Shown: positions 11,542 to 34,716 of the stretch, piece by piece
How the letters are laid out: each line of letters opens with the position of its first letter
Position numbering within the stretch: the first letter of the stretch is position 1
Notes under the pieces: model-generated
Seen by the model: the letters and a program-made list of their open reading frames with translations, nothing else
What the model was told of the DNA's origin: nothing
The model's database searches: none
Translations under genes and position numbers: made by a program
DNA from: a virus
IMG/VR virus record: IMGVR_UViG_3300047546_001061
Coordinates: 1-35,556 of that record
Direction: 5' to 3' (one strand)
DNA length: 35,556 nucleotides

Positions 11542-12114
11542 TCAATAGAACTCTACGATTTCGTCTGCTATGCCAAACTTAACAGCTTCTTGTGCAGTCA
11601 ACCACACGTCTTCAGCTGGAAGTAAGTATCTCTTGATTTGTCTTTCATCTAGACCAGTACAACGCTTGTAGTGATCGACGATACGCTGATGCGTGTTCTT
11701 GAACTCTTTCACCTGCGCCATGAGTTCGTGATCTTTACCAGAAGAACTCCAGCTGTACTGATGAGAGAGAATAGCAGTATTGCGGGTGATAAATCTCTTA
11801 CCCTTGACTCCGGCAATAAACGTCATCAAGCCGCAACTCGATATCTCGCCTAGTCCGTAAGTGTATACTGGAACGTGTGATCCCCTGATAGTATCTATCA
11901 AAGCGAACGCAGAGGGAATATCACCGCCTGGTGAGTTGATGATCATCTTAATGTGCTTCGGGCGATCTTTACCCTCCATCAAGTTGCGAGCTATGATGAA
12001 TTCGATAGCTTCGCCCGAAGACTCTAAATCAAACTCTTTATTAAACAGCAAATAGTGATGTTCTGCGATATCTGGAATTATACTCGATCTATCATAATAA
12101 TCTCTATATCTCAT
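11542..12114 (-). CDS. clpP: ClpP-like serine protease
   Basis: 190 residues, the normal length of ClpP. Catalytic residues are in place: Ser93 in GEISSCGLMTFIAG (89-102), His118 in AILSHQYSW (114-122), Asp169 in AEDVWLTAQEAV (167-178). The NSPGGDIPSAFALIDTI segment (60-76) forms the oxyanion region. There is no Clp ATPase in the window, so it either joins the host ClpX/A or acts alone, for example in prohead maturation or turnover of host proteins. The family call is firm, the target is inference. Confidence 0.92.
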   Translation of the reverse strand: MRYRDYYDRSSIIPDIAEHHYLLFNKEFDLESSGEAIEFIIARNLMEGKDRPKHIKMIINSPGGDIPSAFALIDTIRGSHVPVYTYGLGEISSCGLMTFIAGVKGKRFITRNTAILSHQYSWSSSGKDHELMAQVKEFKNTHQRIVDHYKRCTGLDERQIKRYLLPAEDVWLTAQEAVKFGIADEIVEFY

Positions 12115-12129
12115 AATGTCTCCAGTATA

Positions 12130-12909
12130 TCAAGCTACCGATGCTGTTCTATATCCTATAACCTGCGAAGCAGGGAAATAAGCTACGCTGACTTCTTTGT
12201 TTTGATTACCGCCAAGAACTTTTACGTACTTGACTCCGTCATACCACTCGTAGCCTACAAAGAATCCTACGTGACCAGCCCACTGACTGCGTCCACGCTT
12301 AAGAACGACTACGTCACCCTCTTTTGGATCAGCAGTTCTCATTCCCCAAGACAAGAACGAACGAGCCATTAGACTGTCTGTTCCGTCATATCCCTCTCTA
12401 CGGAGTATTGCGTTAGCGAACGCTGCACACCAAGGAGTGTGAACTGGATCTACTGGACCTTGACCAGTCGAAGCAAACAGAGATTTAAGTTCTTGCTTGT
12501 TCTTCTTCGCGTGCTTGCCTTCCCACTTCTTTGCTTCTGCTACGACTGTAGCAGCAGCTTCAGTGCAATAGAACCAGTTACAAGTCTTTACGACTTGCTG
12601 ACGCTTATCTTCGCGAGTGGGTTTGCGTTGCTGTGTGGAAGCTACGACTTGTGGATGCTGTTTAGCGTACTCTTGACGCCAAAAGTCTCCAGCAGATTCT
12701 TCTCCAGAAGAAGTATACGTTACAGGAGCATCTTCTCTCAAGAAAGCGTTGTTTTCTTTCTTTACTCTAACGTGTTTGACTTTCTTCTTGACTTTCTTTT
12801 TCTTCTTTACTGTGTGTGTTTGCTCTGTAGAAGTTGGTTTTGCTGTCGCTGTAGCAGGAATGCTAAGCATTCCCAGAGCCACCACAGCAGCTAAAATTGC
12901 CTTATACAT
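12130..12909 (-). CDS. Secreted NlpC/P60-CHAP-like peptidoglycan hydrolase (TIGR02594-like)
   Basis: 259 residues from MYKAILAAVVALGMLSIPATATAKP, a classical signal peptide. A Lys-rich stretch follows (about 35-52, KKKKKVKKKVKHVRVKK), then a linker and a C-terminal domain with PWCAAFANAILRREG (Cys nucleophile, about 159-173), GDVVVLKRG and GHVGFFVGYEW (His, about 213-223), and KVLGGNQNKEVSVAYFP (about 229-245). This matches the TIGR02594 amidase/peptidase family. The start at 12909 shares its A with the RlpA stop (TAATG). An exported lysin is a likely lysis function, alone or with RlpA. Confidence 0.86.
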   Translation of the reverse strand: MYKAILAAVVALGMLSIPATATAKPTSTEQTHTVKKKKKVKKKVKHVRVKKENNAFLREDAPVTYTSSGEESAGDFWRQEYAKQHPQVVASTQQRKPTREDKRQQVVKTCNWFYCTEAAATVVAEAKKWEGKHAKKNKQELKSLFASTGQGPVDPVHTPWCAAFANAILRREGYDGTDSLMARSFLSWGMRTADPKEGDVVVLKRGRSQWAGHVGFFVGYEWYDGVKYVKVLGGNQNKEVSVAYFPASQVIGYRTASVA

Positions 12910-13292
12910 TATTCTCTTCTCCAAGGAAGAACTTCGATAAGCAACTTGGCTGTCCCGAGGTTCATGAACCCTAGCGCCTGTGCTCCGCCCCGTGAGACGT
13001 CGAGTTCTTTTGTTCTGACGAACGGACCCCTATCATTGACTACAGCAACGATGCTGCTGCCATTGGTCTCATTCGTCAATCTTAGCATCGTACCAAACGG
13101 GAAGGTTCGATGCGCTACTGAGTATTTATTAGGATCGAACTTACTACCGTCAGCAGTTCTCTTACCCTTAGCGTACCATGTGGCGGTACCGTGGTATTTC
13201 TTTGACGGAGTCATGTCAAAGTTATTAGCCTCGCCAGTCGTAACGCAACCGGCGAGGACTAAACACAGACATATGACTGCGACGCGAGACAT
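12909..13292 (-). CDS. rlpA: RlpA-like double-psi beta-barrel lipoprotein
   Basis: 127 residues. A lipobox LVLAGC places Cys at residue 16, so the protein should be an outer- or inner-membrane lipoprotein. The mature part is a lone RlpA domain: GTATWYAKGKRTADG (35-49), YSVAHRTFPFGT (57-68) and VVNDRGPFVRTKELDVS (84-100), carrying the conserved His and Asp pair expected for lytic transglycosylase activity on peptidoglycan. There is no SPOR domain. It forms a two-gene unit with the secreted hydrolase; together they look like a wall-degrading lysis module. Confidence 0.88.
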   Translation of the reverse strand: MSRVAVICLCLVLAGCVTTGEANNFDMTPSKKYHGTATWYAKGKRTADGSKFDPNKYSVAHRTFPFGTMLRLTNETNGSSIVAVVNDRGPFVRTKELDVSRGGAQALGFMNLGTAKLLIEVLPWRRE

Positions 13293-14196: not shown

Positions 14197-14973
14197 TTAG
14201 CGTTTACGAATTACGTACTTTATTCCAAGTTTCACTATAAGAAAATATAACCAATATGGCATGATATTAGTTAACTTCATGAGAAACACGCCAAACTTAG
14301 GGAACGTTATCTCAAACTTATTGCTATTTAATCCATCCGCGATAGTTTTAGCGGCTTCTTCTGCAGTTACAATAAACGGCGTCTTGATAACTTTTCGGGG
14401 AATTAGAGTCGTAGAGACAAAACCAGAACATACCACCTGTACATTGATGTTTCTATCTTCAAGTTGTTGCTTCATCGATTCTGCTAAAGTAATGGTAGCA
14501 GACTTAGAAACGATGTAAGCTGGATTGAATAGAGGAAGACCACCGTATCCAGATACGGAAGACATGAATACGATCTGACCCTTCTTTCTCTTCAACATCT
14601 TTGGTAACAAGAACTCTACGCAGTTCAACGCACCATAAAAGTTTAAGTCCATAGACTTTCTGAATGAGTCACCGAACATGTCGCTACCGGCCATGAAATG
14701 TCCACCAGCATTCAAGAAAGCTAGACTGATAGGACCGATGATGATCTCTATCAAGTCAACAAGAGCTCTCATAGAACTTCGATTGGTAACGTCAGCTGCT
14801 ATATAGTTGATGTTCTCATGACTGTTAGCTAAGTCACGAAGCTCGCTCTCGGTTCTGGCAGTGACGACGACTTTGTAGCCTCTATTAGCTAGTTCGATCG
14901 CCGTCGCTCTGCCTATTCCTCGAGAAGCGCCCGTTATCCACACTACGCCGTCTTCTGGCTTAGCTGTGTACAT
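14197..14973 (-). CDS. Short-chain dehydrogenase/reductase
   Basis: 258 residues. Rossmann glycine motif TGASRGIG (14-21), Asp of DVTNRSS (about 61), NAGG (88-91), active-site Ser of SSVSGYGG (about 138-145) and Y-x3-K in AYIVSKSA (about 152-159). C-terminal residues 225-258 are hydrophobic and basic, as in membrane-associated SDRs that handle lipids (3-ketosphinganine reductase-like). The desaturase nearby makes a lipid substrate attractive, but this is inference. It overlaps the YkuK-like gene by 14 bases. Confidence 0.9.
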   Translation of the reverse strand: MYTAKPEDGVVWITGASRGIGRATAIELANRGYKVVVTARTESELRDLANSHENINYIAADVTNRSSMRALVDLIEIIIGPISLAFLNAGGHFMAGSDMFGDSFRKSMDLNFYGALNCVEFLLPKMLKRKKGQIVFMSSVSGYGGLPLFNPAYIVSKSATITLAESMKQQLEDRNINVQVVCSGFVSTTLIPRKVIKTPFIVTAEEAAKTIADGLNSNKFEITFPKFGVFLMKLTNIMPYWLYFLIVKLGIKYVIRKR

Positions 14974-16493: not shown

Positions 16494-17243
16494 TTATTTC
16501 TTAAAGAACTTCTCAATAAAGATTCCCATCAAGTCAAACTTACCGTTCATGTTTTGATGGTAGCTCTTTTCGAACTTATGATGAGTGTTATGATTGCTAG
16601 CGCCAAATGAGATCCAAGCCAACAGCGGTATGTCTGAACCCGGTGCATCCTCGTATGTCTTGTACTTCTCGTCCATGTGACCAAACACGTTGACTGCCAT
16701 CAGAGCATGATAGAAGATCACTACACCTAAGATGAAGAAGCAAAAGAAGAACGGCGAGATCAAGAACATACACAAGTCCATCAGAAGAACTATGGGTATG
16801 TAGTACCTCGTGATGAAGACCTGTCTCTTATCTTTGTACATGTCTCTCAAGAATCTACGCGGAATGGTGTACTTGTTCCAGTAGAACATCCATATTCTAA
16901 ATGGTCCAGCAAAGAACGGACTGTGAGGATCTTTTTCAGTATCAGCAAAAGCATGATGCATTCTGTGTGTACCCACAAACCACAGCGGTGGACCTAAGTA
17001 CACGAACAAAGATAGAACTAAAAGAATGTGATCTTTAAATGTGGTAGTCTGAAAACTCTTATGAGAGAAGTATCTATGAAGAGCTATCTCGTTCGCCATC
17101 AAACAGACGAAGTACGAGAAGAACACGACCGCAGCAGCAGTCCACGAAAAGCCATAAAAGACTAGTCCGCAGACCGCCACTACATGATGATACACTTCAA
17201 CGACTCTTAAGTAATCTACTCTATAATCGAGATCTAATTTCAT
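16494..17243 (-). CDS. Fatty-acid desaturase, acyl-CoA delta-9 type
   Basis: 249 residues with the three histidine clusters of membrane di-iron desaturases: HRYFSHKSF (56-64, HxxxxH), HRMHHAFADTEKDPH (93-107, HxxHH) and HNTHHKFEKSYHQN (218-231, HxxHH), with four membrane helices between. The family introduces a cis double bond into saturated acyl chains and needs ferredoxin or rubredoxin/cytochrome electrons. The small zinc protein upstream resembles a rubredoxin but its spacing is not classical. Could change membrane fluidity in the infected host. Start at 17243 overlaps the upstream stop as ATGA. Confidence 0.94.
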   Translation of the reverse strand: MKLDLDYRVDYLRVVEVYHHVVAVCGLVFYGFSWTAAAVVFFSYFVCLMANEIALHRYFSHKSFQTTTFKDHILLVLSLFVYLGPPLWFVGTHRMHHAFADTEKDPHSPFFAGPFRIWMFYWNKYTIPRRFLRDMYKDKRQVFITRYYIPIVLLMDLCMFLISPFFFCFFILGVVIFYHALMAVNVFGHMDEKYKTYEDAPGSDIPLLAWISFGASNHNTHHKFEKSYHQNMNGKFDLMGIFIEKFFKK

Positions 17244-21429: not shown

Positions 21430-21437
21430 TATAAATA
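21430..21437 (+). promoter_or_regulatory. Perfect late promoter box TATAAATA, plus strand
   Basis: Exact match to the T4 late consensus, 39 bases before the ATG at 21476. It overlaps the -10 of the minus-strand nrdA promoter (21434-21439), so early leftward and late rightward transcription would exclude each other. Confidence 0.75.
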
Positions 21438-21475: not shown

Positions 21476-21763
21476 ATGGACGTTAATTCAATCTTTAAAC
21501 TAATAGCAGACGTCGGATTTCCTATAGCTGCCGCGATAGCCGGCGGATATTTTATATTCCTCACCATGAAGTTCATTCTCGCTGGTGTCATGAGCTCTGT
21601 AAAGGGTCTCAGCGGAATCATTACCGCTCTTGATAACCGTGTCAAGACCATGAACCACGACGTCATAAGAATCGACACCCTTGTATCTAATGCTCTGGGT
21701 GTTAAGCCTGACATCGATCGCATCGCGCGAGCCGACGGCAAGAACGACGCTAGGAGAGATTAA
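21476..21763 (+). CDS. Small single-helix membrane protein, first of a tandem pair
   Basis: 95 residues. N-terminal helix VGFPIAAAIAGGYFIFLTM (about 13-31), then an amphipathic coiled-coil like region (SGIITALDNRVKTMNHDVIRI) and a charged C-terminus. The GFPI..A...GYF pattern resembles YvrJ-like phage membrane proteins. It is on the strand opposite to all other genes and behind a perfect late box, so late, lysis-related or membrane-anchor functions are plausible. The binding site is weak (GGGTG). Overlapping shadow frames on the other strand lack such support. Confidence 0.78.
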   Translation: MDVNSIFKLIADVGFPIAAAIAGGYFIFLTMKFILAGVMSSVKGLSGIITALDNRVKTMNHDVIRIDTLVSNALGVKPDIDRIARADGKNDARRD

Positions 21764-21765
21764 GA

Positions 21766-22119
21766 ATGGATATTGCACAGCTAATTTCAAAGTACGGTTT
21801 TCCAATTGTTGCTGCCGTAGGACTTGGTTATTTTGTTTACTATGTATGGGAATGGGCGACCAAAGAGATCAAGCCCGTTTTATCTGATGCCAACACTGTA
21901 CTTATAGCACTCATTGACCGTATCCGTATGTTAGACAACGACCTGATTAGATTAAATCAAAAGGTTAACATAGTACTTATGCTTCGTGAAATGCAACACG
22001 ACGAACTACTAGCAAAAGCGAGCGAGTTCAGAAAGGCTGAGAGTGTGGCCAAAGAGGTACCACATAAAGAGCCCGAAAACAAACCAGACGAACCAAGCAA
22101 AGAAGTAAAGAAGAAGTAA
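21766..22119 (+). CDS. Small single-helix membrane protein, second of a tandem pair
   Basis: 117 residues, clearly related to the preceding gene: MDIAQLISKYGFPIVAAVGLGYFVYYVWEWA has the same GFPI..A...GYF helix, followed by an alpha-helical region (TVLIALIDRIRMLDNDLIRLNQKVN) and a Lys/Glu-rich tail (EVPHKEPENKPDEPSKEVKKK). Two bases separate the genes. The tandem duplicates converge on the cyclase gene, ending one base before its stop. Holin or spanin-like roles are inference. Confidence 0.78.
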   Translation: MDIAQLISKYGFPIVAAVGLGYFVYYVWEWATKEIKPVLSDANTVLIALIDRIRMLDNDLIRLNQKVNIVLMLREMQHDELLAKASEFRKAESVAKEVPHKEPENKPDEPSKEVKKK

Positions 22120-22120
22120 C

Positions 22121-24184
22121 TTATTTGCTAGTCGCACGATAGATTCCATCCCAATCATTACCTGGAGGATTCTTAATGAACTCCTCCACTCTCTCCATCA
22201 TCATGTCGTAGTACTCTTTCAATTCGTTACCAAAATACACTTGAAGATATGGGTAATATTCTTTACACTTATCCCATCTCTGACTTCTGTAGAATTCAAT
22301 AAATTCCATGTGAGTACGTGACTGCACTTTGTTCAGCTTGGTGTTAGGAACGATCGTATAGATGTTCACACCCTCTTTCTTTCCCTTAACAGCAATGCAG
22401 TCTAGTTCGAGACACAAGTACTCGTCTTTTACCAACTCGTAAGTACGTTGTCCAATGACGAGTTTGACATGATAAGGCTTCGACTGTCCCTCAAGACGTG
22501 AAGCGAGATTAACAGAATCACCGAGGCAGGTATAGTCGAAACGCTGGGAGCTTCCCATATTACCCACAACGACAGAACCAGTATTGATTCCAAGGCCCAT
22601 TCCAAAAGCAGGTACACCTTCCACCGCAATCTCTCTATTAAATCTGTCCAAGTCACCCAGCATCTCCAGTGCAGTCTTGACTGCGTTTTTAGCATGATCA
22701 GCGTCGTCTAGTGGAGCGTTCCAAAAAGCCATCTGCGCGTCGCCGATGTACTTATCTAATGTGCCCTCGTTCTCGAGAATCTTTTGAGTCATGGCCGTCA
22801 TGTAACGGTTCATGATCTGAGTCAAGCCCTGAACGTCAGCGCCATAATGCTCAGAAATAGATGTAAAGCCACGGACATCAGTAAACATAATCGAAAGTTC
22901 ACGAGTCTCTCCTCCAAGCTTAAGTAAGTCTGGATTCTCCTGTAACTTCTCTACCATCTTAGGCGACAGGTAAGTTCCAAACTGTTTCTTTATCTGCAGC
23001 TTCAGTCTGTTCTCTCTGGCGAAGTTATTGTACACCAGATGAAAGAACACCATAGTTCCAGATAAAACTATATAGCTAGGATTCCACAACTGAAGGTGTG
23101 TGTGGAATAAGTAGTAAGAACCACCGATAACCAGTCCAATAAAGAGAACATAAAATGGGACAGTCAATCGTACAGACACTCGTGGCACTAGGACAACTAA
23201 CATCAATAATAGTATTGCTGTTATTCCTATCTCTACTAAACTCGCATATGAAGCTCTCGAAACAGAAGTCCCGTCGATCAGAGTCTGAAGGGTCTGAGCT
23301 TGAACCTCATGAGCCCACTTCTCGCCGACCGGAGTAGCTATTATACCACCGACTCCCTCGATTGTTAACCCTAAGACAACAACTTTCCCTTCGACATCTG
23401 TCTTACGGATTTCAGTTGCTTCAACTTGTCTGAACTTATTGTTCCAGGTCGTCCAGACGCGACCGTTCTGATCTGTAGAGATGGCTGGGAAGGCAGGGAT
23501 ACGGACGGCTTCGACGCCTGCGTCACCTGTCTTGATTTGATAGGAGGGGTCTCCAGCAGCTGTGCGTAGGGTTTCCAGTACAAGTGAAGGATACAGTGTA
23601 TTCCCAATGCGAGCCAACATAGGCACGCGACGAACAACACCGTCGCGCTCGGGAGCAACAGCCAAGAGTCCAACGCCGTCTGCATTTCCTGCAAGACTTG
23701 GAAGAGGAGGGATAGCCCCGCGCCAAGTAAAGAGATATGGAGCAGGATCATTACCGATAGCAGCAAACCCTCTGCGAGCAGCATCTGGGTTTCTGGTCTG
23801 AGAAGTTGGTGTCTGTGATATAACGATGCCACCGCCAGCGATACTCTTTTCAAGAGCGGAGTCGCCACCAGCACGATCTTTTTCAGAAAACAATATAGGA
23901 ACTGCAATAACGGCTGCACCGTTCTCGCGAAGCTTGTCGATAGTCTTAGCGATGTCTCGACGATCGAACGGCCACTGACCAAAACTCTGTACAGACTTTT
24001 CACCGAACTCAACAAGTACTATCTCCTCTGACTCTTTACTGTCTAGTGACGTAATGAAGTAGTCAAAGGTCTTCAGTTGTAAAGTTTCAACGACGGTTGG
24101 ATTCCATACTGCCACAGCGATAAAGATCATCGCTGAAATAACAGCTGCCCACCTGCTGGTAAGAATGATGCCTAACTTTTCCAT
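22121..24184 (-). CDS. CHASE2-domain class III adenylate cyclase
   Basis: 687 residues. A signal-anchor helix (11-29), an extracytoplasmic CHASE2 sensor (about 35-305; LVEFGEKSVQSFGQWPFDRR at 58-77 and the DGVVRRVPMLARIGNTLYPS region), three membrane helices (about 317-334, 341-360, 369-386), then the catalytic domain 400-600. Cyclase residues are intact: D436 in MFTDVRGF, K478 and D482 in DKYIGD, the FDYTCLGDSVNLASRLE segment (549-565) with N559 and R563. K478 with T552 predicts ATP as substrate. The protein should span the inner membrane and turn an extracytoplasmic signal into cAMP. It is the last gene of the curli-like operon, two bases after the small curlin gene. Confidence 0.93.
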   Translation of the reverse strand: MEKLGIILTSRWAAVISAMIFIAVAVWNPTVVETLQLKTFDYFITSLDSKESEEIVLVEFGEKSVQSFGQWPFDRRDIAKTIDKLRENGAAVIAVPILFSEKDRAGGDSALEKSIAGGGIVISQTPTSQTRNPDAARRGFAAIGNDPAPYLFTWRGAIPPLPSLAGNADGVGLLAVAPERDGVVRRVPMLARIGNTLYPSLVLETLRTAAGDPSYQIKTGDAGVEAVRIPAFPAISTDQNGRVWTTWNNKFRQVEATEIRKTDVEGKVVVLGLTIEGVGGIIATPVGEKWAHEVQAQTLQTLIDGTSVSRASYASLVEIGITAILLLMLVVLVPRVSVRLTVPFYVLFIGLVIGGSYYLFHTHLQLWNPSYIVLSGTMVFFHLVYNNFARENRLKLQIKKQFGTYLSPKMVEKLQENPDLLKLGGETRELSIMFTDVRGFTSISEHYGADVQGLTQIMNRYMTAMTQKILENEGTLDKYIGDAQMAFWNAPLDDADHAKNAVKTALEMLGDLDRFNREIAVEGVPAFGMGLGINTGSVVVGNMGSSQRFDYTCLGDSVNLASRLEGQSKPYHVKLVIGQRTYELVKDEYLCLELDCIAVKGKKEGVNIYTIVPNTKLNKVQSRTHMEFIEFYRSQRWDKCKEYYPYLQVYFGNELKEYYDMMMERVEEFIKNPPGNDWDGIYRATSK
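23340..23368 (-). promoter_or_regulatory. Possible internal promoter in the cyclase gene
   Basis: TTAACA (23363-23368), 17 bases, TATAAT (23340-23345), 11 of 12 to consensus. RNA from here would encode only the membrane helices and cyclase domain without CHASE2. No matching start codon with a ribosome binding site was identified, so it may be accidental. Confidence 0.3.
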
Positions 24185-24186
24185 TA

Positions 24187-24450
24187 TCAGTACTGTGTAA
24201 TTGTATACGGGCTAGTGGGACAGCTACTACCACAATCAATAGTAATGCTGTAACTTTGATTAGTCGTTCCACTTTGGGATCCAGAAAAAGTAATACCATT
24301 TCCACGCAGGTCCACACTAGCAGAATGGCTTCCACCGCTTTGAGTAATAGTAACATTTTGATTCGTTCCTTGCATATTCACAGTAGCATTGTTTACGGTC
24401 TGTGCATGAACAGATGTAGAGATCAAGAGTAGCGCGATAAGTATCTTCAT
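24187..24450 (-). CDS. Small secreted curlin-like protein
   Basis: 87 residues with a signal peptide cleaved after SVHA (about residue 16). The mature part has strand-like repeats with Gln/Asn and Gly turns: VNMQGTNQNVTITQSGG and VDLRGNGITFSGSQSGTTNQSYSI, the pattern of curlin repeats, ending in TITQY. A CGSSC pair (C73, C77) near the end has a counterpart in the larger curlin. It may act as a minor subunit or nucleator as CsgB does. Start overlaps the FecR stop as ATGA. Confidence 0.75.
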   Translation of the reverse strand: MKILIALLLISTSVHAQTVNNATVNMQGTNQNVTITQSGGSHSASVDLRGNGITFSGSQSGTTNQSYSITIDCGSSCPTSPYTITQY

Positions 24451-25565
24451 TGGCTCTGCTTTATAGTTATAGTTGTAGTGCCGGGACCATTGATCACTTG
24501 CTTGACAGTAATACCGTCTTGACTCAGATTCAAAGTAGCCATCCTAGTAGTGCTCAAAGTGACTTCTGCGTAGTGGCTAGCAGTCTCTCTGTAAAGGGTG
24601 ACGTAGTCGTTGTCGACGAAGTACTTAAGTCCAGTAGTCTTATCGTATTTAGGTAGAAGAGCGTTGAACTGATCTAGTTCATTACTCAACATCTGCGCAG
24701 CAGTCACGTCCAGATAGTTTAGAAGGTAGTCTTCATAGGCAAGATAGTTCTTATCCAGACCAGTCGGTCTGTCCAGAGCGTTCTGTTCAAGAGCCGTATA
24801 CTTCAAGTAGTCTATAGAAAGAAAGTCTTGATCTAGGAAGTTAAACGCTTTTGTTATACCTCTTGTCTGTTCTTGTCTAGCTTCTCTTGGTGGAGTTACG
24901 ATCAGCATGTTGTTGATCTGATCGAGAGAAAGATTTAAGAGAGCAGACTTTGGTTGCTGTATTCCAGTACTAACTGTAACTGACTCAAAGGCTTTAGTCA
25001 ACAAGACCGTACCAGTCATCGTAGTAACTGTGATATTGCCGACCGTGCAGTCTCTCTGTAAGTTCTTCCAACCTGCTGGACACGAAGGCAACAAGATGAT
25101 GGTCGACTTACCAGTCTCGTCTACTGTACCAGAGAAGTCCGTACCTCGTACGCCGATAGTAGCCGTCGGAGTCTCTACTACTACTTGTTGTGGATCGTTC
25201 TTTGCTATCTGACCAGAAGCGTACTTGATAGTACCAAGAGCCATCTTGATACCTAACTTACCAGTCTTCTTCTCACCATCATAGACAAAGTTATCTATCA
25301 CGAGACGAGAGTGTTCCGTGATCTGTACTTTAGTATCGTCTTTGAACGTGATGCCTGCCTTTGAGTTGGCAGTAGTCACCACGTCGTTCATCTCTATCTC
25401 CGACTGAATCTGAGAAGGAACACTAGAGTTGTTCCTCTTTATTTCAGTCGGTCCTGTCTGCTCAGTTACTCTACCGATGTCCGCCTTAGTTGTGGTTGGA
25501 CTTAATAGTAAGAGTGTTGCTAGAGCCAGTGATAGTAGCGTTAACCTTTGAATCAACTGCGCCAC
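24447..25565 (-). CDS. Secreted FecR-domain protein
   Basis: 372 residues. A signal peptide (about 1-28: MAQLIQRLTLLSLALATLLL...KA) is followed by a FecR domain (30-160): VTEQTGPTEIKRN, AGITFKDDTKVQITEHSRLVID (about 70-91), VVVETPTATIGVRGTDFSG (about 127-145), which is the FecR core. Residues 230-330 are helical; the last 40 (ATLNLSQDGITVKQVINGPG...TITIKQS) are strand-like and resemble a curlin repeat. FecR domains are found as periplasmic signal or adhesin modules. Its first 80 bases overlap the 3' end of the curlin gene in another frame. Confidence 0.86.
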   Translation of the reverse strand: MAQLIQRLTLLSLALATLLLLSPTTTKADIGRVTEQTGPTEIKRNNSSVPSQIQSEIEMNDVVTTANSKAGITFKDDTKVQITEHSRLVIDNFVYDGEKKTGKLGIKMALGTIKYASGQIAKNDPQQVVVETPTATIGVRGTDFSGTVDETGKSTIILLPSCPAGWKNLQRDCTVGNITVTTMTGTVLLTKAFESVTVSTGIQQPKSALLNLSLDQINNMLIVTPPREARQEQTRGITKAFNFLDQDFLSIDYLKYTALEQNALDRPTGLDKNYLAYEDYLLNYLDVTAAQMLSNELDQFNALLPKYDKTTGLKYFVDNDYVTLYRETASHYAEVTLSTTRMATLNLSQDGITVKQVINGPGTTTITIKQSQ

Positions 25566-26160
25566 CCTGTCCTATAGTCGCCGTATTAAGTGCACCGTTT
25601 ATAGTAAGATCAAGCGAATGACCAGTAGTGCTAGCTGCACCGGTCTGATCTACAGTAACTTGATTTCCGTTACCACCAGATATATCGATGTTATTGACTA
25701 CGCCAGATGAATTTGACGAGTTGTTAGTCATAGTCACGGTGTTGTTATCAGAAGATACGGACACATTAGTAGTAGCAGCACCGTCGTTCTGGATCGATAC
25801 GGTATTGCCATCACCAGTTATGGTCTTATTAATAGTAGCACCAGTACACGAGTCACAGTTTATAGTAGATTGATTCGAACTACCAGTTACGCTGCTAGTC
25901 ACAGTAGCACCGGCACCGTCTACGTTTATGTTAGTAACGTTCGAATCGCCTATCTGTTGAACTGTAATACTGTTGTTGTTGCCGTTAATAGTAGCTCTGT
26001 TTAATGCGCTACCAACCTGATTTCCACTGCCAGTCTGCGTGATCGAGATCGTAGAGCCATCACCTATTTGATCCATATAGATGCTATTGCTCGCCGCATT
26101 TGCATATTGAAACATAATCAAGAATGACAAAAACGCCATCATTCTTGTTATTAGTTTCAT
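25486..26160 (-). CDS. csgA: CsgA-like curlin, major amyloid subunit candidate
   Basis: 224 residues. Signal peptide about 1-22 (YANA then ASNS). The mature protein is almost wholly made of short repeats with the curlin layout S/T-x5-Q-x-G-x4-N: IYMDQIGDGSTISITQTGSGNQ, ITVQQIGDSN, VTVDQTGAAS, ATIGQGGAVD. A CDSC pair (C102, C105) is unusual for CsgA. Classical curlins form beta-solenoid amyloid fibres outside the cell after export through CsgG. It begins one base after csgG. The last 80 bases are also the start of the FecR gene. Confidence 0.87.
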   Translation of the reverse strand: MKLITRMMAFLSFLIMFQYANAASNSIYMDQIGDGSTISITQTGSGNQVGSALNRATINGNNNSITVQQIGDSNVTNINVDGAGATVTSSVTGSSNQSTINCDSCTGATINKTITGDGNTVSIQNDGAATTNVSVSSDNNTVTMTNNSSNSSGVVNNIDISGGNGNQVTVDQTGAASTTGHSLDLTINGALNTATIGQGGAVDSKVNATITGSSNTLTIKSNHN

Positions 26161-26964
26161 TTATTTCCCTTTCTTAAAACTCCAGATCTTTCTCTTTGCT
26201 CCTTCTTTAATCATGTCTGTAACGGCTGCTTCAATCGCTATTCTCACTGCATAAGTCGTAGGTTCGTTTATGGTTGAACCCGCTTCTAGCTCTACTGACT
26301 TAGTACCAGCATCCACAAACTTCATTACGTTTGCACTCACGCCAGTACTGTAAATCGTCTTAGTCGAACCTGTAGAGAGAAGTATCTCTCCGGTGTTTAC
26401 CGAGATGAGTCGCAACATGATCGTGACTTCATCTTTTCTGTACTGCTGATCTGCGCCTACTCCAAGGAATCTAGCGCCCATACCACCAGTAGCGATATTA
26501 GTATCGTAACCCACAATTCCACCATCTATCATCACTCCCGCAACGATTAGAGGCACGAGTGGTTTAGCTTGATCTTTCTCATACGTCTCACGCTGAGAAC
26601 GAATCAGCTGCCTCTCTTTGACTAAGTTCTCAAGCCCAACTCTCTCGACAGGTTGAAACCACTTACCCTTACCAGCATCTTGTAGAGCTTTGATCAAGAA
26701 GACTTCGCCGCCTTGAGTTACTGCTGAACTGAGAGACGCGTAGTTGCTGTTTGGCTTACGCTGACCAGTCATATCATTGAAGCGATACACGGCGATCGGG
26801 ATTACAGGACCGTCCGGAGCTGTTATGTTAACGAGCTCGTTGAATCGCTTATGCGTCACTATCTCAGGACCATCTACTTCTTTTTCAATAGTCTTCTGCG
26901 TGATGCCCTTACCAGCACATCCGGAAAGGACTAACGCTAAAGCTATAACGAAGGCTCTTACCAT
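26161..26964 (-). CDS. csgG: CsgG-like outer-membrane amyloid secretion channel
   Basis: 267 residues. Lipobox LVLSGC (Cys16). Family motifs are clear: PIAVYRFNDMTGQ (56-68), FQPVERVGLENLVKERQLIRS (102-122), IVAGVMIDGGIVGYDTN (about 140-156) and GARFLGVGADQQYRKDEVTIMLRLISVNTGEIL (about 163-195), as in E. coli CsgG. The constriction segment equivalent to Y51-N55-F56 reads S..S-L, so the pore ring differs. CsgG is a nonameric barrel that exports curlin subunits. It overlaps csgF by 7 bases. Confidence 0.94.
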   Translation of the reverse strand: MVRAFVIALALVLSGCAGKGITQKTIEKEVDGPEIVTHKRFNELVNITAPDGPVIPIAVYRFNDMTGQRKPNSNYASLSSAVTQGGEVFLIKALQDAGKGKWFQPVERVGLENLVKERQLIRSQRETYEKDQAKPLVPLIVAGVMIDGGIVGYDTNIATGGMGARFLGVGADQQYRKDEVTIMLRLISVNTGEILLSTGSTKTIYSTGVSANVMKFVDAGTKSVELEAGSTINEPTTYAVRIAIEAAVTDMIKEGAKRKIWSFKKGK

Positions 26965-27395
26965 GCTAAACTTCCGTACGGTACGACAACCTGCGTTGTA
27001 CTACCGCCGGCGTCAGTTATAGTCAGAGTGATGCTGGATCCATCGGATGACCACTGTAGATGGTTACCCTGTATGTCAAAAGCACCAGATGTCGCACCAC
27101 CGTCTTTGAACAACTCAGCAGCTATGTTCTGCGAGATGGTGGCGTAGATGCGACTCTCTAAGTTATTTAGGAATTTAGCTAAGTTTGTGTTCTTAGCGTC
27201 AGCCGCTGCTTTGGCGGCTTCTGCCTTCTTGTCGTCTATGATCTTCTGCTTTCTGGTCTGTTCCAGATTGTCAATAGTAAGAACATGAGACGAAAAACCC
27301 ACGCCGTTGAATGCAGGACTCTTGAACCCAAACTGCAATTCAGAGGCGTGGGAAGCAGAAGAAATTAGTAAAAAGGCTATAACTAACTTCTTCAT
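26958..27395 (-). CDS. csgF: CsgF-like curli assembly factor
   Basis: 145 residues. Signal peptide ending SHA (about residue 17), then SELQFGFKSPAFNGVGFSSHVLTIDNLEQTRKQK, which matches the CsgF N-terminus (FxFxxPxFGG, hydrophobic, AQxQ) that inserts into the CsgG pore. The C-terminal half (LQWSSDGSSITLTITDAGGSTTQVVVP) forms the beta tail. Longer helical middle than E. coli CsgF (KKAEAAKAAADAK). First gene of the operon, GGAG seven bases before the ATG, with a perfect late box at 27415-27422. Confidence 0.88.
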   Translation of the reverse strand: MKKLVIAFLLISSASHASELQFGFKSPAFNGVGFSSHVLTIDNLEQTRKQKIIDDKKAEAAKAAADAKNTNLAKFLNNLESRIYATISQNIAAELFKDGGATSGAFDIQGNHLQWSSDGSSITLTITDAGGSTTQVVVPYGSLAW

Positions 27396-27414
27396 ATTGC
27401 ACTCCGGTTTTAAC

Positions 27415-27422
27415 TATTTATA
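27415..27422 (-). promoter_or_regulatory. Perfect late promoter box TATAAATA for the curli operon
   Basis: Exact T4 late consensus on the minus strand, 20 bases before the csgF start and overlapping the thyX stop codon. Predicted RNA start near 27408 leaves a 12-13 base leader with GGAG. No sigma70-type promoter was found in front of csgF, so the operon should be expressed late. Confidence 0.72.
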
Positions 27423-30909: not shown

Positions 30910-31608
30910 TCATCTATTTTTAGTGATTACCAGCCTTCCGTCAGCTGTAAGATAACCCGTATCACCTGGATAGAACCAACCGTTACGGAAGTGAACAGCA
31001 TCCATCTCTGCAAAGTCGAGATAGTTTTCAGCCATAGTTGGCGACTTAATTCGGATATAACCTGCATCAATTTCTACAGTAATACCTTCAAGGGGCTTAC
31101 CTACGCAGCCGTCAATATCAGCAACTTCTTCAGCTGTACCAGAAGCTATAGTTCCAATTTCAGTGCAACCATAACCAATTTGAAGATCTTTACCGAGCCA
31201 CTTTTGAACATAAAGTGCATCAGCTCGAGACATAGTTGAGTGACCAGAAATAACCTGCTTAAGATCGGCTGACTTGCCAGTAGCTTCAAATATTCTAGCG
31301 ACCATTACAAGATAACCTGGAGCTGCGTCGATAGCATCTACTTTTTCATTAGCAAATGTTTCTATAATTTTATCTGGTTTAATTGCAGAAACAATCTTTT
31401 TATTTCTTGCTTCAGCCCATGCTTTCCAACGTTGGAATGAAGAAGAACCAATAGCTTTTGCTACGTATACGACTTTACATTCGGTAATATTTTTGCCCTT
31501 GCCAACGTCAGTCATATCGACACGAAGCTTCATAATTTCAGGAGAAAGCGCGAGCTGTTTGCCCATACCGCCCGATGTTCCAGATGTTGATACGATAATG
31601 TCTGCCAT
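30910..31608 (-). CDS. Minimal AMP-binding (ANL-superfamily) protein
   Basis: 232 residues, much shorter than normal 500-600. It begins right at the P-loop motif (MADIIVSTSGTSGGMGKQ) and ends directly after the hinge motif (GDTGYLTADGRLVITKNR). The core GYGCTEIGTIASG (about 145-157, A5 motif) and DAAPGYLVMVA are present. Missing are the N-terminal subdomain before A3 and the whole C-terminal lid with the catalytic Lys. AAGGA upstream of the ATG marks a genuine start, so this is a naturally truncated unit and not a sequence break. A normal adenylation reaction is doubtful; nucleotide or acyl binding may remain. Confidence 0.85.
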   Translation of the reverse strand: MADIIVSTSGTSGGMGKQLALSPEIMKLRVDMTDVGKGKNITECKVVYVAKAIGSSSFQRWKAWAEARNKKIVSAIKPDKIIETFANEKVDAIDAAPGYLVMVARIFEATGKSADLKQVISGHSTMSRADALYVQKWLGKDLQIGYGCTEIGTIASGTAEEVADIDGCVGKPLEGITVEIDAGYIRIKSPTMAENYLDFAEMDAVHFRNGWFYPGDTGYLTADGRLVITKNR

Positions 31609-33742: not shown

Positions 33743-34716
33743 TCTGGAAGGATAGTGTCGTCGCTTGCATCGGCTGTAGTAGCAGCTGTACCGTAGGCAG
33801 CTGACTGCTTGCCGAGAGAACCCATTGCTACGAGAGTCTCGTACTGAACGCGACCTGCACGACCGCCAGTTCCCTCGCGACGAACGACCCAACCAGCGTG
33901 AGCGATGCCGGTACCCTTGTTACCGCCAGATACTACGTAACCCTGAGCAGTTTCGCCCTGAATGGTCGCGCCGCCTGCAGACGTGCTGTCGCCGGATGCT
34001 TTAGCAAAGTTGATGTTTGCAGTGCCCGGAGAATCTGAAAGCTTAAATCCGCTGGTATTAGCAAAGCTAATGTAGTATGCGCGTTGATTTACGAGCGTTA
34101 CTGGTGTTGAAGTTGCATTACCAGCATAAACGACTTTATCATTGACCTGTAGATAAGAGTTTGCCGATGCGTAAGCAACGAATGCGCCAGTTGAAGTATT
34201 TGGTGTTACGTCGGTATTACCGTTGAAAACGATAAGACCCGGAGCAGCGATTGCAATAGTTGGATTGGTAATGTAACCAGAACCGCCCGTCTGAATGTTA
34301 AGCTGATCGATACGACCGCCTGATGCGTGCGCGTTGACTACACCGGATGTACCGCCGTTAGTGACAGTGATGGTTACAGCTGCATTTGCTAGATAACCTG
34401 AACCAGCTTTAGTAATATATGCTTCAGCGATCGGACCGCCGGTAACTGCAGTAGCTTCAGTAGCGTCTACGCCGAATATACCGACTGCCATGTTAGGAAT
34501 GAACGCGCCGACAGTAGTGTTGCCGAACATGTTCTTATCCACACCAGCGCGTGAGCCGGGAGAAGTGTTGCCGAAGTGAGCGTTAGCGCCGTCGACGCGA
34601 TTGACCTGATCACCCTTGACGAGAGTGTAAGTGCCGATAGGAGCTCCGTTAGAAGTCTCCTTAGTAGTAGTGCTGTTGGCAGTAACAGACTGATCGTTTC
34701 TACCCCATTGTGCCAT
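33736..34716 (-). CDS. Conserved phage structural protein
   Basis: 326 residues starting MAQWGRNDQSVTANSTTTKET. It has repeated beta motifs (ITKAGSGYLANAAVTITVTNGG, IQTGGSGYITNPTIAI) and a well-conserved end: HAGWVVRREGTGGRAGRVQYETLVAMGSLG, then TADASDDTILPDS. I recognise this protein from cyanophage and pelagiphage structural gene clusters; its exact virion location is not certain. Start has AGGAGG eight bases upstream and a perfect late box 35 bases upstream (34751-34758). Confidence 0.88.
   Translation of the reverse strand: MAQWGRNDQSVTANSTTTKETSNGAPIGTYTLVKGDQVNRVDGANAHFGNTSPGSRAGVDKNMFGNTTVGAFIPNMAVGIFGVDATEATAVTGGPIAEAYITKAGSGYLANAAVTITVTNGGTSGVVNAHASGGRIDQLNIQTGGSGYITNPTIAIAAPGLIVFNGNTDVTPNTSTGAFVAYASANSYLQVNDKVVYAGNATSTPVTLVNQRAYYISFANTSGFKLSDSPGTANINFAKASGDSTSAGGATIQGETAQGYVVSGGNKGTGIAHAGWVVRREGTGGRAGRVQYETLVAMGSLGKQSAAYGTAATTADASDDTILPDS

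Follow-up and report, generated by a model that had tools for sequence, protein, structure and literature searches.

Why should a phage carry genes for curli together with genes that look like parts of a signalling pathway? The question is raised by an operon in the virus record IMGVR_UViG_3300047546_001061 of IMG/VR, a 35.6-kb stretch (35,556 nucleotides; "the window" hereafter) of a T4-like phage. The assignment to T4-like phages is based on nrdA, nrdB, thyX and PhoH-like, primase-like and tail genes, the last three kinds being named from their sequence. An earlier note, made from the DNA sequence alone, had described a minus-strand operon of six genes, and all six are present where it placed them: csgF, csgG, curlin-1, fecR, curlin-2 and a gene for a CHASE2-class III cyclase form a single operon (22121-27395), and the outer limit given in that note, 27422, is the exact outer edge of a late promoter box. 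The module is larger than these six genes, however, as it also includes two plus-strand genes (21476-22119), here called TM1 and TM2; these and a curlin-like tail on the FecR protein had been missed. Our preferred answer, to which we give slightly less than an even chance, is that the locus encodes a late-expressed phage apparatus for curli (type VIII) export, coupled to a signalling relay across the envelope. The eight genes are:

csgF, 26958-27395, minus strand: curli assembly factor, 145 amino acids (Pfam CsgF; PHROG 35372)
csgG, 26161-26964, minus strand: outer-membrane curli pore lipoprotein, 267 amino acids, lipobox LSGC (Pfam CsgG)
curlin-1, 25486-26160, minus strand: secreted curlin-repeat protein, 224 amino acids, predicted beta-solenoid, conserved Cys pair
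fecR, 24447-25565, minus strand: secreted periplasmic FecR-domain protein, longest frame 372 amino acids, curlin-like C-terminal beta domain at about 312-372
curlin-2, 24187-24450, minus strand: small curlin-like protein, 87 amino acids, at a conserved position
cyclase, 22121-24184, minus strand: CHASE2 sensor with class III adenylate cyclase, 687 amino acids (Pfam domains and catalytic residues)
TM1, 21476-21763, plus strand: small membrane-type protein, 95 amino acids, with a hydrophobic segment (PHROG 18771)
TM2, 21766-22119, plus strand: small membrane-type protein, 117 amino acids, a TM1 paralogue convergent with the cyclase gene (PHROG 18771)

For comparison, viral loci were collected by scanning IMG/VR for CsgG, FecR and TM1, and their open reading frames (ORFs) were annotated by profiles; individual loci carry L numbers.

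The curli export genes

CsgF matched the Pfam CsgF family with 62 bits (cut-off 25.8) and CsgG the Pfam CsgG family with 182 bits (cut-off 20.8); residues 2-264 of CsgG align with the E. coli CsgG structures (E 3.6e-50), as expected for a homologue of the pore. A phmmer search with CsgF against the PDB gave no CsgF match. Curlin-1 scored 21.7 bits with Pfam Curlin_rpt, just over the cut-off of 20.7 for a fibre subunit, and its AlphaFold model is the beta-solenoid that had been anticipated (predicted local distance difference test, pLDDT, 86.6; predicted template modelling score, pTM, 0.79). Comparing this model with known structures (VIA) returned many beta-solenoids, the best being SufB-SufD (Z 18.5), which supports the predicted solenoid shape but not a relationship. 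Curlin-2 by itself is under the Curlin_rpt cut-off (16.1 bits), and its match to NCBIfam CsgB (E 2.3e-4) is far under the cut-off of that model, although its position and C-terminal motif are kept in relatives. Formation of extracellular amyloid fibres by these proteins is a prediction. Cysteines in the viral curlins are mostly even in number (two in 79 of 97 curlin-1 proteins, at least two in 63 of 63 curlin-2 proteins); viral curlins mostly have 2 or 4, bacterial ones mostly none. A disulphide would be unusual for an amyloid that is exported unfolded.

CsgF, CsgG, curlin-repeat proteins, pore homology and the lipoprotein signal are common to the phage module, the E. coli csgBAC/csgDEFG genes and alphaproteobacterial csgF-csgG-curlin loci. 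Enteric systems use CsgE as a periplasmic adaptor, which alphaproteobacterial ones do not need. CsgE (PF10627) had no match in the window, in 11 related phage genomes or in G001, with a positive E. coli control, in line with what had been noted before; it is also absent from Alphaproteobacteria modules (PMC9599517). The phage module further differs from bacterial curli operons by the addition of FecR and the cyclase.

FecR with a curlin-like tail

FecR matched its Pfam family with 49 bits (cut-off 24). In its predicted structure a signal peptide precedes the FecR ectodomain, which is followed by a linker of low confidence, a helix and, at the C-terminal end, a six-stranded domain. Residues 58-227 have the FecR-domain fold, resembling the ectodomains of the anti-sigma proteins PupR and BDI_1681 (Z 14.4-15.4; root-mean-square deviation 2.6-2.7; 135-136 residues aligned). 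In a FecR anti-sigma regulator, the FecR domain would be preceded by a cytoplasmic anti-sigma domain and a membrane anchor, but only a signal peptide precedes it here. The label "iron-dependent regulator" is therefore unsupported, and this published point would need revision; an iron or anti-sigma regulator was rejected on this architecture.

The tail would connect FecR with the curlins. Its predicted strands (314-370) have block pLDDT values of 90-94, with 73 for the block of the last two residues, and those from 321 to 364 are spaced by about 11 residues, like the likewise predicted solenoid of curlin-1. The C-terminal motif phi-x-phi-x-Q was found in 85 of 90 viral FecR proteins and 92 of 171 viral curlins, compared with 2 of 548 other viral ORFs. 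Against a curlin-unit profile, 92% of the FecR tails scored more than 3 bits; the proportion was 6% once the tails had been shuffled, 3% for pieces from elsewhere in FecR and 0.2% for C-termini other than these. The tail is retained even in a very divergent viral FecR of 850 amino acids, and none of the bacterial FecR tails compared, including that of locus L051 (see below), has such a curlin-like end.

The longest fecR frame begins with GTG and overlaps curlin-1 by 80 nt; a similar overlap occurs in most close relatives. Either the overlap is dual coding, or the true fecR start may be further in.

The cyclase and its bacterial pairing with FecR

Matches to Pfam CHASE2 (138 bits) and Guanylate_cyc (77 bits), together with intact D436 and D482 (metal), K478 and T552 (base), N559 and R563, characterize the cyclase as a CHASE2 class III enzyme with predicted activity, bearing out the earlier reading of its metal-binding and base-binding residues. 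No substitution of either metal Asp, the Lys or the Arg occurs in 73 viral homologues.

In the same alignment of 73 sequences, 49 have Thr or Ser as the base residue with Asn, and 23 have Asp with Ser replacing Asn (L003, L132, L145, L159, L194 and 18 others). The two residue types covary almost perfectly, with one exception, and the Asp/Ser type may differ in activity. In addition, stand-alone proteins of 108-138 amino acids, often encoded directly before csgF or TM1, align with the cyclase over its C-terminal ~110 positions only (L131:6185-6556, L137:6883-7239, L198:8026-8403, L291:4482-4835 and L293:3973-4305), as if the C-terminal domain could also act in trans.

FecR next to a CHASE2-cyclase is a bacterial pair, consistent with the envelope-sensing pair that the earlier note had envisaged. 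Related FecR proteins occur in 37 of 398 genomes of one bacterial order, and a CHASE2-cyclase adjoins the curli-free bacterial FecR in 8 of 29 loci (L051 excluded; the flanks extended only ~1.5 kb). In the 12 loci examined, the product of the gene before the bacterial FecR has a Phe at or near its C-terminus, as is usual in outer-membrane barrels; one such gene had a weak SlipAM match. As a precedent, the outer-membrane-associated NsrA of Sinorhizobium (S. meliloti) is reported to act with CHASE2 adenylate cyclases (PMC7529298). The phage and bacterial pairs are alike in that FecR adjoins the cyclase, in bacteria often after an outer-membrane-barrel-like gene; they differ in that the outer-membrane partner in the phage is likely the curli pore, and that phage FecR has the curlin-like tail.

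TM1 and TM2

The TM pair directly precedes csgF, in the same orientation, in 48 of 108 loci and lies elsewhere nearby in 28, typically convergent beyond the cyclase as in the window; it was not found in the other 32, several of which are cut by contig ends. When TM1 was the only query, so that curli genes played no part in the scan, each of 34 loci with complete flanks had curli genes, as did 38 of 44 truncated loci. Among 50,697 phage records, TM2 occurs in six only, all of them curli phages, and in bacterial curli loci neither protein was found except in two short contigs that look viral. TM1/TM2 is thus an obligate pair of the module, absent from true bacterial loci, and provides two new genes for testing.

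A "histidine kinase", sometimes two, has been reported before csgF (PMC9599517). To judge from place and number, this is probably TM1/TM2; a Pfam scan of the two proteins found no kinase domain, for which they are too short, and no holin family. For TM2, PHROG gave a weak match to "holin" (E 2.6e-4, residues 2-19). Both TM1/TM2 and the curlin-like FecR tail appear to have gone unnoticed in published work.

Evidence for late expression

The motif TATAAATA, the T4 late promoter box, stands before csgF and before TM1:

late promoter box TATAAATA, 27415-27422, minus strand: 19 nt upstream of the start codon of csgF
late promoter box TATAAATA, 21430-21437, plus strand: 38 nt before TM1

Of the three TATAAATA sites in the window, one closely precedes csgF, one TM1 and one a gene with its start at 34716. 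At least three sites were also obtained in 14 of 100 shuffles, so that the window on its own is weak evidence. Across relatives, 35 of 112 loci have the box between -120 and +40 of csgF, and none of the 112 has it in antisense; for internal genes the count was 1 of 411. Adding boxes before an upstream TM pair gave 56 of 113 operons with a box. This excess of the box in front of csgF, with none in antisense, supports late expression of the operon, as had been proposed. Among 11 other curli phages, 7 each had one sigma-like protein of 192-222 amino acids, about the size of T4 gp55. The period in which the module would act is narrowed by the late promoter.

Distribution and origin of the module

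Phage curli modules are widespread, and their gene order is nearly uniform over the IMG/VR loci. Where enough downstream sequence was available, curlin-1 and the cyclase were present in 30 of 30 loci (in line in 29) and curlin-2 in 24 of 30. Starting from FecR only, csgG was found in 69 of 69 testable loci; one viral scan gave more than 550 FecR-positive places, and the module also occurs in contigs of 337-349 kb. CsgG matches among the 50,697 phage records were confined to HTVC008M (two records), the four strains of Melnitz and a 1.5-kb fragment that bears the label Salmonella phage.

The window has the pelagiphage-type order csgF-csgG-curlin-fecR-(curlin)-cyclase. A search for this order in other phages, as the earlier note had advised, found the identical six-gene order in the Pelagibacter phage HTVC008M (NC_020484) and the Methylophilales phage Melnitz (MZ577097), with CsgG 44-48% and the cyclase 41-43% identical to those of the window. 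Curlin-2 has 87 amino acids in the window compared with 441 and 338 in these phages, and TM1/TM2 are convergent beyond the cyclase rather than upstream of csgF. The guanine-cytosine (GC) content is 44% in the window, but 33.5% at the HTVC008M locus and 37% at the Melnitz locus; the host is therefore perhaps not SAR11 or OM43. The window is a new, divergent member, probably, judging from its GC content, with a host other than SAR11. The module is already known in kind: a curli operon was described in pelagimyophages in 2020 (PMC7029224), a lysis role was proposed for Melnitz CsgGF in 2022 (PMC9004378), and FecR, adenylate cyclase and both curlins were named in the pelagiphage module in the same year (PMC9599517), so that the block and most of the uses suggested for it are published.

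Curli operons are otherwise mostly bacterial, and the earlier note had named an assembly chimera with a bacterial contig as what would undo its reading. Nothing in the data favours this, and we give it practically no credence. GC content is 44.9% within the module and 44.0% elsewhere in the window; the csgG locus L004, from another sample, is 99% identical to that of the window and repeats the flanking thyX and/or nrdA; and in seven further contigs (L005, L008, L010, L014, L031, L032 and L123) the module likewise has thyX on its upstream side and/or nrdA on its downstream side. The thyX-[module]-nrdA layout thus recurs on independent contigs, and a chimera was ruled out on these two grounds.

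Among the bacterial curli loci fetched, fecR and cyclase are in line with the curli genes only in L051 (9471-15494), where csgF-csgG-curlin-fecR-CHASE2 cyclase form one operon on a 705-kb contig of a metagenome-assembled genome (MAG), Hyphomonas sp. TMED17. The operon sits among TonB-receptor-like genes and the contig is chromosome-like. This contradicts the published statement that FecR and cyclase are not within bacterial curli operons, a claim that would need revision. In a quick CsgG tree, L051 sits on a long branch among the viral sequences, a placement compatible with transfer in either direction. Ten other contigs filed under bacterial MAGs, including Pelagibacter and Synechococcus (L040, L041, L042, L044, L045, L052, L058, L080, L097 and L107), look like mis-binned phage DNA, because in most of them CsgG clusters with its viral counterparts, and TM1/TM2 are present in several.

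Proposed mechanism and alternatives

In the mechanism that we propose, CsgG and CsgF would form an outer-membrane pore, through which curlin-1 and curlin-2, after secretion to the periplasm, would be exported and stacked as a beta-solenoid amyloid. FecR would be a soluble periplasmic protein with its FecR domain as the signalling part, while its C-terminal curlin-like domain might bind, cap or template curlin at the pore, replacing a job done elsewhere by CsgE, CsgB or CsgC. The CHASE2 domain of the cyclase would read FecR and cyclic AMP (cAMP) would be made upon a change of export or fibre state, with TM1/TM2 as an obligate inner-membrane partner. We infer export, fibre formation, FecR-curlin contact, FecR-CHASE2 contact and cAMP signalling alike. 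The benefit would most likely come at or after lysis, by holding cells, debris or virions together, and not through early exclusion. The full version, an eight-gene late checkpoint of fibre export in which the FecR tail engages the amyloid, the cyclase reads FecR and TM1/TM2 complete the machine, is tentative, and we consider it more prone to fail than to hold. If FecR does dock curlin and report to the cyclase, an amyloid exporter, a "regulator" and a cAMP enzyme become one testable mechanism.

Several points weigh against this proposal. The fibres are predicted, and the Melnitz authors saw no clumping in their cultures (PMC9004378). A Foldseek search of the PDB with curlin-1 gave no match with E < 0.001 and solved CsgA was not listed, and AlphaFold readily draws solenoids from repeats of this type. 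What ties the FecR tail to curlins is a profile of our own together with predicted strands; when the tails alone were scanned with Pfam and NCBIfam, there were no matches. On the receiving side, none of the 19 curli phage records has a cyclic nucleotide (cNMP)-binding domain, hence no canonical cAMP receptor, and such a domain occurs in only 9 of 147 Pelagibacter-family genomes.

Unlikely, yet the strongest of the competing explanations, is that the CsgG/CsgF pore has been repurposed, opening the envelope or timing lysis together with holin-like TM1/TM2, the curlins gating or plugging it without a fibre. This would suit the lysis role proposed for Melnitz CsgGF, the small membrane-type TM proteins with the weak holin match of TM2, and the strict linkage of the pair to the module with its own late promoter box in the window. 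It leaves the retained curlins, the curlin-like FecR tail and the CHASE2 cyclase unexplained, however; TM1/TM2 match no Pfam holin family, and a holin would be expected in curli-free relatives too, whereas the pair was never found apart from curli genes in full-flank loci. That the module alters the host surface, excluding other phages or protecting the infected cell, is less probable still. Such a use has been suggested for pelagiphages (PMC9599517), and T7 is known to bind in curli layers of biofilms (PMC8346279). Against it stand the late promoter box of the operon and the early timing of the T4 exclusion genes that are known; superinfection exclusion, one of the uses listed in the earlier note, is for this reason less likely. 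Finally, the names of the FecR domain and adenylate cyclase invite the idea, put forward in PMC9599517, that the two switch transcription of the curli genes in the manner of an iron-citrate or CsgD/Crp-type regulator. We regard this as very improbable, given a secreted FecR with signal peptide and ectodomain fold but no cytoplasmic anti-sigma part, the scarcity of cNMP-binding proteins just described, and the presence in related phages of only single sigma-like proteins of gp55 size. The export module with its signalling relay remains the reading that we favour.

Other features of the window

An Rfam scan of the window found two tRNAs only, and neither a riboswitch nor a transfer-messenger RNA (tmRNA); comparison of NrdA did not yield a taxonomic placement of the phage. 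Elsewhere, the window encodes a phage-borne short-chain dehydrogenase (14197-14973), a fatty acid desaturase (16494-17243) and, within 11542-12924, a ClpP-type protease adjoining a CHAP-domain protein. A 232-amino-acid protein (30910-31608), next to the tail-region genes, matches the C-terminal part only of an AMP-binding enzyme profile.

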